From Microbacterium gallinarum (GTDB lineage: Bacteria > Actinomycetota > Actinomycetes > Actinomycetales > Microbacteriaceae), in contig NZ_JACSPM010000001.1 of assembly GCF_014837165.1 (NCBI RefSeq), positions 1-64,000 of the forward strand: a stretch of DNA of 64,000 nucleotides, read 5' to 3'. Positions 41,760 to 46,552 of the stretch are shown here, in pieces (position 1 is the first letter of the stretch; every line of letters begins with the position of its first letter). Both the position numbers and the translations under genes were made by a program. Under the pieces are notes generated by a model that made no database searches, had not been told where the DNA came from, and saw only the letters and a list, made by a program, of their open reading frames with translations.

Positions 41760-42266
41760 GTGGTGACCCTTCGCGAATCCCCTGTCGACGCCCCTGACGC
41801 CCACGAGCTCCTCGCCGAGTACTTCCGTGCCCGCACAGCCGGCTTCGCCGAACAGGCCGTGGTGTACACCACGACCTTCCCGCAGCCCGAGGCGTTCGTG
41901 CGGCCGGCCGGCGTCTTCGTGATCCTCGACGACGACGAGCGCCGGCCGGTCGGCTGCGGCGGAATCCGCCTCATCCCCGACGGGCCGCACGGCACCCGGT
42001 ACGAGGTCAAGCACCTCTACCTCCGGCCCGAGACCCGCGGCCGCGGCTGGGGACGCCTGCTCATGGACGGCCTCGAGTCACGGGCCCGCGAGCTCGGCGC
42101 GCGTGAACTGGTGCTAGACACGCACCACTCGCTGGAAGCCGCCGGCGCACTCTACGCCCGCACCGGCTTCACCACGATCGAGCCCTACAACGACAACCCG
42201 AACGCGAGCCGCTGGTACAGCAAGGTGCTCGCAGCTCCGGCGACCTCCGAGGATCAGACCGGGTAG
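41760..42266 (+). CDS. GNAT acetyltransferase
   Basis: A 168-residue N-acetyltransferase. VKHLYLRPETRGRGWGRLLMDGLE is the acetyl-CoA loop, followed by LVLDTHHSLEAAGALYARTGFTTIEPYNDN. GTG at 41760 is followed by a second GTG; I chose the first because TACGCT is exactly 6 nt upstream (41748-41753). Substrate unknown. It overlaps the convergent phosphatase gene by 13 bp. Confidence 0.86.
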   Translation: MVTLRESPVDAPDAHELLAEYFRARTAGFAEQAVVYTTTFPQPEAFVRPAGVFVILDDDERRPVGCGGIRLIPDGPHGTRYEVKHLYLRPETRGRGWGRLLMDGLESRARELGARELVLDTHHSLEAAGALYARTGFTTIEPYNDNPNASRWYSKVLAAPATSEDQTG

Positions 42267-42856
42267 ACCTCGGGCAGGCCCGTGCGCAGCTCGACCGGGA
42301 GGTGCGCCATGTCGTTGTGCGAGAGCAGAGTCCAGGGGCGGCCCTGCTTCTGGGCGATCACCGTCAGGCCGCAGTGGGCCTGGTTCAGAGTCATCCAGCG
42401 CCAGTCGGGCGCCTGCAGCACCTCGCGGACGAACCACGCGATGACGAAGTTGTGCGTGATGAGCAGCTCGTGCACCTCGCCGCGCTTGCGCACGAGGTAC
42501 TCGCTCACGGCGTCGGCCATCTGCGCGCGGCCGGCTTCGATCTCGGCCTCGGTGACGGAACCGAAGAACGGCTCGAACGCCGTCGGCGTCTCCTCGGTCA
42601 TGCCCGTCGGCACGCAGTCGAACAGCAGTGCCGATGGCTCGGGCTCGAGCGACGGCATGCGCTCCTTGACGGCCTGCGCGGTCTGGCTCGCACGCTCGAG
42701 CGGCGAATGCCACACCGCATCGAACGGCACGCCGGACAGCCGATCGGCCAGCAGAGCGGCCTGCCGCCGGCCCCGCGGCGACAGGCGCCCGTCGACCAGG
42801 CCGTGCTCGGCATCCTGGTGCTCACCATGTCGCACGAGGTAGATGTAGTGCGTCAC
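42254..42856 (-). CDS. Histidine phosphatase (phosphoglycerate-mutase-like)
   Basis: A 200-residue member of histidine phosphatase branch 1. The phosphohistidine motif LVRHGEH, the Arg in WHSPLERASQTA and the second His in LLITHNFVIAWF are intact. The substrate is not evident; family members include phosphoglycerate mutases and broad phosphatases. GTG at 42856 has GGAG 8 nt upstream; another GTG lies 3 codons earlier. Confidence 0.83.
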   Translation of the reverse strand: MTHYIYLVRHGEHQDAEHGLVDGRLSPRGRRQAALLADRLSGVPFDAVWHSPLERASQTAQAVKERMPSLEPEPSALLFDCVPTGMTEETPTAFEPFFGSVTEAEIEAGRAQMADAVSEYLVRKRGEVHELLITHNFVIAWFVREVLQAPDWRWMTLNQAHCGLTVIAQKQGRPWTLLSHNDMAHLPVELRTGLPEVYPV

Positions 42857-42954
42857 GCAGCTCACTCCGTCGGGGGTCGCGTGCCCCGACGGGACACCTC
42901 CTCCACCCTACGACACGGACCAGACAGCCCCCGGTCGCGCCGTGACGGAGCGAC

Positions 42955-43995
42955 CTACTCGGACGCCCGGGCGATGTCGGACAGCTGGGCGCGGCTCAGG
43001 CGGACGCCGACGCCCTGCACGAGCTCCTCGACCTGTGCCGAGGCGAACGCGTTGATGATCGGCGCCGTCACGAGCTTCTGCGCGAGCAGCCACGCCACCG
43101 CGACGGCAGCGTCGGGCACGCCGAGCTCCGTTCCGACCGCGTCGAGCGCGCGCAGTGTGCGGCTGCCGCGGCGGTTGAGGTTCGCCGCGAGCTGGGCGCC
43201 GCGCACGGACAGCGTGCCGCGCAGGCGCGTGCGCTGACGACCGGCGAGGAAGCCGTGCTCGAGCGCGTGCGACGGCGTGACCGCCATGCCCTGCGCTCCG
43301 GCGACGAGCCGCAGGTCGGCGTCGAACTCGTGCCGCCGGAGCACGTTGAACGGCACGTCGAGCACGGTGATGCGCGGGAACCCCGCGGACGAGTAGATGC
43401 GCGCTTCGACGAGCTGGGCTGCGGTGTAGCCGATGGCGCCCAGCGCACGGACCTTGCCGCTGTCGACCAGCCACTCGGCCGTGGCCAGCGTGTCTTCGAG
43501 GGCGGTGGTCGAGTCGCTCGTGGCGTCGAGGTACAGCACGTCGATGCGATCCGTCCGCAGACGGGTGAGGGATGCCTCGACCGCGCGCACCAGGTTCACC
43601 GGACCGAGCCCGGGGTTGTCGGCATGGCCGCCGATGCGCACCATGAGGGCGACGTCGTCGCGGAGCCCGCGGGAGTGCAGCCACTGACCGATGATGTGCT
43701 CGCTGCGCCCGGCGGCGAAGCTGTCGGACGTGTGCACCGCGTTGCCGCCGAGTTCGACGTAGGTGTCGAGGATGTCGTGGCTGGACTCGAGGTCGACGTT
43801 CCAGCCGAACTCCGCGCCGCCGAGGATCAGCGGGAAGATGTCGATGCCGCTCTCGCCGAGCGGAGTGCGCACGTTGCGGCCGACGGGCGGCCCCTGAACC
43901 GGGATCGGTGCGGACGGGTGCACGCCGGGCACGATGGTGGAGAGTGTCTCGGGGCTCGATGACGAGAGCTTCGAGTCAACGCCGAAGAAAGCCAT
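42955..43995 (-). CDS. Aldo/keto reductase homologue lacking the catalytic tetrad
   Basis: A 346-residue protein with the full AKR barrel but none of the four catalytic residues. Aligning VHTSDSFAAGRSE with the canonical FDTADxYGxGxSE puts His88 in place of Asp and Phe93 in place of Tyr. MVRIGG has Arg120 for Lys, and VLYLDATSD has Asp157 for His. The rest (LGAIGYTAAQL, AVAWLLAQKLVTAPIINAFASAQVEELVQG) keeps the AKR plan, so NADPH binding may remain. An Ala/Ser-rich 40-residue N-terminal tail is present. ATG at 43995 has GAGGGGG upstream. It is probably a pseudoenzyme or has a different chemistry. Confidence 0.88.
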   Translation of the reverse strand: MAFFGVDSKLSSSSPETLSTIVPGVHPSAPIPVQGPPVGRNVRTPLGESGIDIFPLILGGAEFGWNVDLESSHDILDTYVELGGNAVHTSDSFAAGRSEHIIGQWLHSRGLRDDVALMVRIGGHADNPGLGPVNLVRAVEASLTRLRTDRIDVLYLDATSDSTTALEDTLATAEWLVDSGKVRALGAIGYTAAQLVEARIYSSAGFPRITVLDVPFNVLRRHEFDADLRLVAGAQGMAVTPSHALEHGFLAGRQRTRLRGTLSVRGAQLAANLNRRGSRTLRALDAVGTELGVPDAAVAVAWLLAQKLVTAPIINAFASAQVEELVQGVGVRLSRAQLSDIARASE

Positions 43996-44216
43996 GTGAC
44001 ACCCCCTCACGTCGACTCCCGATGGAGACTTCGTGATCGCCTGTCCCGCACCCCCCGGCGCGTTACCTAAGAGGGTAGGGCAGTCCGGACAATCCCCTGA
44101 CCGTTGCGGTGTGTCGCGGGTAAACATTACATAACGCTTTGGTCACGTCCCGAGAGCTCCACCCCCGCCTGTCCCCCATTCGGCGGACACACTCGCGCAT
44201 CCCGCGCGCAGACGAG
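43996..44216. other. Intergenic region upstream of the AKR-like gene
   Basis: It contains an AT-rich island at about 44117-44137 (GTAAACATTACATAACG), unusual for this genome and probably part of a promoter or operator for the AKR-like gene. TACCCT (44077-44072, minus strand) is a possible -10. No coding sequence is seen. Confidence 0.45.
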
Positions 44217-44255
44217 GGATGCCCGCCCCCTCCGCTCGGGAAGGGACGGGCATCC
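44217..44255 (-). terminator. Hairpin terminator after pnp
   Basis: GGATGCCCG (44217-44225) pairs perfectly with CGGGCATCC (44247-44255), and the inner CCC/GGG run can extend the stem. It lies 17 bp past the pnp stop. No U tract, as is usual for GC-rich actinobacterial terminators. Confidence 0.75.
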
Positions 44256-44272: not shown

Positions 44273-46552
44273 TCAGCCTTCGGCGGGAGCCTCGGGGCCC
44301 TCGCTCGCAGCGTCGCGACCCTCCTGGTCGGCGGCCTCCTCGAGAACGGGCTCGAGGGAGAGCTTGCCGCGGTCGTCGATCTTGGTGATCCGGACGAGCA
44401 GCTTCTGTCCGACACCGAGCACGTCTTCGACGTTCTCGACGCGCTTTCCGCCGGCGAGCTTGCGGACCTCGCTGACGTGCAGCAGGCCGTCCTTGCCGGG
44501 CAGGAGCGAGATGAACGCGCCGAACGTCGCGATCTTCACGACGGTGCCGAGGAACTGCTCGCCGACCTCCGGGTTGGTGGGGTTGGCGATCGCATTGACC
44601 TGGGCACGGGCGGCCTCGGCCGACGGGCCGTCGGTCGCGCCGATGTAGACGGTGCCGTCCTCCTCGATGGAGATCTGAGCGCCGGTCTCATCCTGGATCG
44701 CGTTGATCGTCTTGCCCTTCGGGCCGATGAGCTCGCCGATCTTGTCGACCGGGATCTGCACGCTGATCACGCGCGGGGCGGTCGGAGCCATCTCGTCCGG
44801 CCCGTCGATCGCGGCGTTGAGGACGTTGAGGATCGTGAGGCGAGCCTCCTTGGCCTGGGTGAGCGCGGCGGCGAGGACCGACGACGGGATGCCGTCGAGC
44901 TTCGTGTCGAGCTGGATCGCCGTGACGAACTCGCTCGTGCCGGCGACCTTGAAGTCCATGTCACCGAGGGCGTCCTCGGCGCCGAGGATGTCGGTCAGTG
45001 CCGCATAGCGGGTCTGACCGTCGACCTCGTCGGACACGAGCCCCATCGCGATGCCGGCGACCGGAGCGCGCAGCGGCACACCGGCGTTCAGCAGCGACAG
45101 CGTCGAGGCGCAGACCGAGCCCATCGACGTCGAGCCGTTCGAGCTCAGCGCCTCCGAGACCTGGCGGATGGCGTACGGGAACTCCTCGCGGCTGGGCAGC
45201 ACCGGCATGAGGGCGCGCTCGGCGAGGAAGCCGTGCCCGATCTCACGACGCTTGGGGCTGCCGACCCGGCCGGTCTCACCGGTCGAGTACGGCGGGAAGT
45301 TGTAGTGGTGCATGTAGCGCTTGCTCGTCGTGGGCGACAGCGAGTCGATCTGCTGCTCCATCTTGAGCATGTTCAGCGTCGTGACACCCAGGATCTGGGT
45401 CTCACCGCGCTGGAAGATCGCCGAGCCGTGCACGCGCGGGATGACCTGCACCTCTGCGTCGAGCGGACGGATGTCGGCCAGGCCGCGCCCGTCGATGCGG
45501 ACGCCCTCGGAGAGGATGCGACCGCGCACGATCTTCTTGGTGACGGACTTGTATGCACCGCCGAACTCGGCTGCGGCCGATGCCGGCAGCTCGCCGGCGT
45601 CGATCGCCGCGGTGAGCTCCGCCTTGACACGGTCCTTGATCGCGTCGTCGGCGCTCTGGCGCTCCTGCTTGTCGGCGATCTGGTAGACGCCGACGAGCTC
45701 ACCGTAGGCGCGCGAGTTCACGAATTCGAACGTCTCATCGGTGTAGGGCGGGAAGACGGGGTACACGCCGGGCTCGCGCGACGAGCTCGCAGCCATCTGG
45801 GCCTGGGCCTCGACGAGCTGCTTGAGGAACGGCTTGGCGGCCTCGAGGCCCTGCGCCACGATCTCCTCGTTCGGCTTGACGGCGCCACCCTTGATGAGGT
45901 TCCAGCTGTTCTCGGTGGCCTCGGCCTCGACCATCATGATCGCGACGTCGCCGTCGGGCAGGACGCGACCGGCGACCATGAGGTCGAAGACGGCCTCCTC
46001 GACCTGGGCCTGGTTCGGGAACGCGACCCACTGGTCGGCGTGCTCACCGTGGCCGGGGACGAGCGCGAGGCGCACACCGGCGATCGGGCCCGAGAACGGC
46101 AGGCCCGAGATCTGCGTCGACGCCGACGCGGCGTTGATCGCGAGCGCGTCGTAGTACTCGCCGGGTGCGATCGAGAGCACCGTCACGACGATCTGCACCT
46201 CGTTGCGGAGGCCGTCGACGAACGAGGGACGCAGCGGGCGGTCGATGAGACGGCAGACGAGGATCGCCTCGGTGGAGGGGCGGCCCTCACGGCGGAAGAA
46301 CGAGCCGGGGATCTTGCCCGCGGCGTACGAGCGCTCTTCGACGTCGACGGTCAGCGGGAAGAAGTCGAAGCCTTCGCGCGGGTGCTTGCCGGCGCTGGTG
46401 GCCGAGAGGAGCATCGTCTCCTCGTCGAGGTACGCGGCGACGGCACCCTGTGCCTGCTGCGCGAGGCGTCCGGTCTCGAACCGGACGGTGCGGGTGCCGA
46501 AGCGGCCGTTGTCGAGGACGGCTTCGGCGGCGGTGATTTCAGGACCTTCCAA
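44273..46552 (-). CDS. pnp: Polyribonucleotide nucleotidyltransferase (PNPase)
   Basis: A 759-residue phosphorolytic 3'-5' exoribonuclease. Two RNase PH cores ([46 protein letters not shown]) flank an alpha-helical domain. KH ([25 protein letters not shown] region) and S1 ([28 protein letters not shown]) domains follow; the tail is acidic. Start is TTG at 46552 with AAGGAG 7 nt upstream, within a leader of about 240 nt that contains a strong hairpin. rpsO, its usual neighbour, is 15 kb away. Confidence 0.97.

Follow-up and report, generated by a model that had tools for sequence, protein, structure and literature searches.

Genes and Features at the Locus

Within the window (the whole 64,000-nucleotide stretch of Microbacterium gallinarum DNA that was analysed), an aldo/keto reductase (AKR) homologue is flanked by pnp and a histidine-phosphatase gene (Table 1). 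Microbacterium is a soil bacterium. Among genome contigs, a scan found 80 close relatives, almost all from Microbacterium; in these 80 loci, the gene order is pnp, AKR homologue, histidine-phosphatase gene, followed further along, in most cases, by a GNAT gene and dapB. With the window and locus L010 added, the relatives form an alignment of 82 Microbacterium rows. A record titled Planococcus sp. APC 4015 (L047) holds a typical Microbacterium locus, with 83–88% identity in pnp, the AKR homologue and the phosphatase gene, and its name is therefore probably wrong.

Table 1. Coordinates of the features at the pnp–phosphatase locus, as positions in the window.
Feature	Position	Strand	Remarks
pnp (polynucleotide phosphorylase/guanosine pentaphosphate synthetase)	44273..46552	-	Constant upstream neighbour
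17-bp hairpin just after pnp	44217..44255	-	z -5.8 for 96-nt stretch; terminator-like, no T run
Gene of the candidate AKR-fold pseudoenzyme, 346 aa + stop	42955..43995	-	Open frame, PF00248, fold match
N-terminal 43-residue extension before the barrel	43867..43995	-	HPSAPIPVQGP motif conserved, model confidence low
His88 codon, in place of the tetrad Asp	43732..43734	-	Alignment; H in 82/82 Microbacterium rows
Phe93 codon, in place of the tetrad Tyr	43717..43719	-	Alignment; F/Y alternate among orthologues
Arg120 codon, in place of the tetrad Lys	43636..43638	-	Alignment; retained in all divergent full-length genus members
Asp157 codon, in place of the tetrad His	43525..43527	-	Alignment; D in 81/82 Microbacterium rows
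Histidine-phosphatase (phosphoglycerate-mutase-like) gene	42254..42865	-	Constant downstream neighbour

The 346-aa frame is open from end to end, in agreement with the first-pass annotation, which had described it as intact. It starts at the ATG at 43995, with a ribosome-binding-like GAGGGGG (44008–44002) a few bases upstream; a longer in-frame ATG at 44127 was rejected because the orthologues align from the shorter start. No T-tailed terminator was found after pnp, and the hairpin there may be a GC-rich-type terminator. Since this hairpin is strong, the AKR homologue may be transcribed separately from pnp, so that a link to RNA decay would be one of position only. A PADLOC search gave no match that would indicate a defence function, and a plasmid collection yielded only AKRs below 60% identity.

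By descent and fold, the product is a member of the AKR superfamily. It matches Pfam PF00248 (Aldo_ket_red) with an E value of 1.3e-41 over profile positions 1–289 of 291, and its AlphaFold2 model (pLDDT 81.9, pTM 0.82) is most like the solved structure 7utf (Z 36.0 over 290 residues, 2.5 Å), with AKRtyl at Z 35.1. The HPSAPIPVQGP motif, kept among the orthologues, occupies residues 26–36, upstream of the barrel.

Replacement of the Catalytic Tetrad

At the four positions where AKRs have Asp-Tyr-Lys-His (DYKH), the M. gallinarum protein has H88, F93, R120 and D157. The sites were placed by alignment with close DYKH relatives, which are 48–51% identical and in which the GNFIDTADSYSAGRSE, ATKIG and IDLLYFH blocks are contiguous; a pairwise HMMER alignment with AKRtyl shifts the tetrad His by one column, and here the many-sequence alignment decides. 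The identical procedure, applied as a control to the same genome, recovered DYKH in all seven of its seven other AKRs. Misalignment is therefore not the cause of the missing tetrad, and an alignment artefact was rejected on the strength of this control and the close DYKH relatives. The tetrad by which an AKR enzyme is recognized is absent, being H-F-R-D in this protein and H-x-R-D in its clade, and the initial claim that all four catalytic residues are replaced holds.

The homologues, once collected and aligned, also bear out the earlier description of a conserved protein. His88 is present in all 82 Microbacterium rows, residue 120 is Arg in 80 rows and Lys in 2, and residue 157 is Asp in 81 and Asn in 1, which led us to reject chance or sequencing error. 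Position 93 behaves differently, with 48 Phe, 33 Tyr and 1 Ser, and the F and Y types swap repeatedly on the tree (6 changes for one label and 8 for the other). Consequently, of the HFRD set proposed at first pass, H88, R120 and D157 stand as conserved residues and Phe93 does not; the signature is H-x-R-D, and the catalytic Tyr hydroxyl is not needed.

Conservation, Loss and Selection within Microbacterium

A match at 1e-40 was obtained in 290 of the 295 Microbacterium genomes, a figure that includes a few hits to other AKRs. Within the genus, divergent members read HDRD, HLRD, HDRN or QERD; the full-length ones all have Arg120, with D or N at the Asp157 site. The gene is cleanly absent from four Microbacterium genomes (L255, L256, L257 and L258), in which pnp directly adjoins the phosphatase gene, and it is therefore dispensable. 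In three others (L231, L233 and L234), it is split across two frames, which may reflect sequencing error or decay.

Purifying selection acts on the AKR homologue, if a little less strongly than on the core enzymes. Its median pairwise omega (Nei–Gojobori, pairs with dS of 0.15–1) is 0.28. The genes around it give 0.15 (phosphatase gene), 0.17 (pnp), 0.21 (dapB) and 0.35 (GNAT gene); a comparison with the canonical copies is unusable, as synonymous sites are saturated between genera. Could the gene be a relic, in slow decay, of a reductase that has been lost? The clean absences, the split frames and the existence of fast-evolving members are what such a relic would leave, but invariant sites across the sampled species, the near-universal match in the genus and the omega value make this reading hardly credible.

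The Cofactor Site

In AKRtyl, the nicotinamide is contacted by Ser160, Asn161, Gln186 and Trp214 (PMC10923870). Pairwise and family alignments place these residues at positions 188, 189, 213 and 242 of the M. gallinarum protein, where the DYKH relatives have mostly S, N/D, Q/E and R/Y. Among the Microbacterium rows, position 188 is variable and its Ser is lost, 189 is Gly in 81 of 82, and 213 and 242 are Asp and Ser, respectively, in all 82. At the adenine side, the S-A-S-R-P-x-Q motif of the DYKH relatives has become N-A-F/Y-A-P-x-H in most Microbacterium members and N315-A-F-A-S-A-Q321 in the M. gallinarum protein. As judged from the sequence, the residues that hold NAD(P)H are thus missing at both the nicotinamide and the adenine ends, and we infer that NADPH-dependent carbonyl reduction has been lost in the H-x-R-D protein.

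The closest solved folds (Z 35–36) and sequences, namely the AKR12 family, AKRtyl (8jwk–8jwo) and the deoxynivalenol AKRs 7utf and DepB (8hwn), differ in this respect: they are NADPH enzymes with the tetrad, whereas all four AKRtyl contacts are replaced in the M. gallinarum protein. It is very improbable that the protein is still a reductase or oxidase that binds NAD(P)H in an altered way. The fold is retained, as are Trp65, Asp91 and Gly248, and 33 of the 82 members keep a Tyr at position 93; this has to be set against the change of Tyr to Phe in 48, the replacement of Lys, His and Asp, and the exchange of every published nicotinamide contact together with the adenine-side motif.

Are these replacements concentrated at the site? 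Among 300 comparable positions, 31 are fixed in Microbacterium and unlike the DYKH consensus. Such switched-and-fixed residues account for 6 of the 8 tetrad and nicotinamide positions (P 1.8e-5) and for 3 of the 4 nicotinamide positions outside the tetrad (P 0.004), the latter being the fairer test because the search itself was prompted by the tetrad. This enrichment indicates that the residues of the site were first replaced and then held constant. With the genus-wide fixation and the purifying selection, it upholds the original view of redesign rather than decay. The catalytic face as a whole is conserved no more strongly than the remainder of the protein (P 0.41), which weakens the claim of a precise new site.

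A further reading is that the former nicotinamide site is itself catalytic, with E62, H88, R120, D157, D213 and S242/H243/H247 serving an acid–base or metal-assisted isomerase, lyase or hydrolase. E62, H88, D213, S242 and H247 are each present in 82 of 82 rows, R120 and D157 are nearly as constant, and the enrichment at nicotinamide contacts also speaks for such a non-redox enzyme. We nevertheless regard it as unlikely: the face is not unusually conserved as a whole, divergent members that retain R120/D157 have lost E62, H243 and H247, and the neighbours are core genes that offer no substrate context. The broader proposal, that the AKR barrel acquired a new non-redox site, either catalytic or sensing, where the nicotinamide subsite had been (E62, H88, R120, D157, D213 and S242) and that this site became fixed genus-wide, is a tentative one that we consider doubtful.

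Probable Origin by Conversion of a Canonical Gene

Seven loci from sister genera (L012, L015, L024, L025, L033, L035 and L037) have a DYKH gene at the corresponding place; for L035 and L037, the synteny call rests on pnp, the sole neighbour within the stretch examined. The pnp-linked canonical AKRs of other Microbacteriaceae (L012, L015 and L024) share with the M. gallinarum protein their genomic place, family, 46–48% identity and descent, but the DYKH tetrad and the cofactor residues of the Ser/Asn/Gln type are theirs and are absent from the M. gallinarum protein. When 122 sequences were placed in a maximum-likelihood tree, the H-x-R-D rows came together in a single group nested among DYKH rows (SH-aLRT 97, a value from a quick method, with the placement of long branches less sure), and a very divergent copy, G164, falls inside this group. 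The same locus with DYKH in sister genera, together with this nesting, points to a single event, most likely the conversion of a reductase gene in the stem of Microbacterium. Descent from a tandem paralogue of the S-Y-K-D type, described below, was rejected because the tree puts the H-x-R-D rows near other DYKH rows.

Repeated Loss of the Tetrad in the Same Gene Family

The tree requires a minimum of five changes between canonical and lost tetrads. Paralogues with S-Y-K-D (in one case S-Y-Q-D) occur in several other Microbacteriaceae genera, at L036, L137, L148, L149, L151, L152 and L165, in tandem before a DYKH-type copy, and such a copy is possibly a pseudoenzyme partner of the active DYKH-type one. 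A V-H-R-E/Q lineage comprises L038, L124 and L125, and the D-A-K-D copy in L026 goes with it. In addition, L152 has a D-Y-K-Q copy, and a D-V-T-R copy in L164 (2737–3927) has its basic residue in the place of the tetrad His and not in that of the Lys. In all copies with H-x-R-D, S-Y-K-D or V-H-R-E, position 88 has no acid, position 157 has one and position 120 retains Lys/Arg. This pattern suggests that the AKR fold favours a buried charge pair that can be re-made across the pocket.

The same pattern would also suit a structural or assembly subunit in which the pocket is irrelevant, the moved charge pair only keeps the barrel folded and the outer surface does the work. The recurrence of the acid at 157 rather than 88 in independent lineages fits this alternative, as do the basic residue at 157 in D-V-T-R, the lack of face-wide conservation and the tandem S-Y-K-D and DYKH copies of other genera, which could form mixed oligomers. 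We hold it to be quite improbable, since positions 189, 213 and 242 were switched and then fixed, which goes beyond what folding should require.

A Probable Pseudoenzyme with a Rebuilt Pocket

At the sequence level, the features of a pseudoenzyme are present: the fold is kept, the catalytic residues are lost and selection is maintained. Our preferred reading, to which we give a probability of about 55%, is that the protein is a non-reductase pseudoenzyme derived from a formerly canonical AKR, whose rebuilt polar pocket binds a ligand and is read out by a partner or an oligomer. The pnp-linked DYKH gene, widespread in the family, was most likely altered once in the Microbacterium stem, with Asp changing to His, Lys to Arg and His to Asp, and with the Tyr site left free to become Phe. 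The residues that held the nicotinamide were exchanged for Gly, Asp and Ser, and the new set has stayed fixed under purifying selection. In our model, based on the geometry of the AKR fold, Arg120 would pair with Asp157 rather than with an acid at residue 88. The barrel would thereby retain its buried charge pair, and the site would have become a polar pocket formed by E62, H88, R120, D157, D213 and S242. This pocket may hold a small polar or charged ligand, and binding would be read out, without turnover, through a partner or the oligomer state. Two sets of observations stand against the pseudoenzyme reading. It is weakened by the absence of special conservation on the catalytic face and by an omega above those of pnp and the phosphatase gene, and some lineages drift (those with HDRD, HLRD, HDRN and QERD) or, in some cases, have lost the gene.

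A precedent for a protein that works in this way is the glutamate–cysteine ligase modifier subunit, a eukaryotic AKR-like protein that serves as a regulatory subunit; the M. gallinarum protein is likened to it by role, not by relationship. The comparison first offered, with the beta subunits of potassium channels, proved inexact. Kv beta proteins (AKR6) resemble the M. gallinarum protein in the AKR fold (Z about 34), but they are described as functional, NAD(P)H-dependent AKRs in which NADP+ is tightly bound and a catalytic tyrosine is used (PMC9317154). They are active with bound NADP(H), whereas the M. gallinarum protein has lost the cofactor contacts as well as the tetrad. Furthermore, the Kv beta model TIGR01293 scored 58.6 bits, far below its cut-off of 365.4, and none of the genes seen beside the AKR homologue encodes a channel. 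Searches of the open-access literature found no description of an H-x-R-D protein or of such an AKR pseudoenzyme.

The locus offers a well-sampled case in which an enzyme family loses its chemistry while the gene stays put. The DYKH and H-x-R-D types stand at one locus in sister genera, and the loss recurs under a repeated rule, the acid appearing at the His site rather than the Asp site, opposite the retained Lys/Arg; the order and the cost of catalytic-site loss are therefore testable. The case is also a warning that, of the genes annotated as aldo/keto reductases, hundreds probably do not encode reductases.
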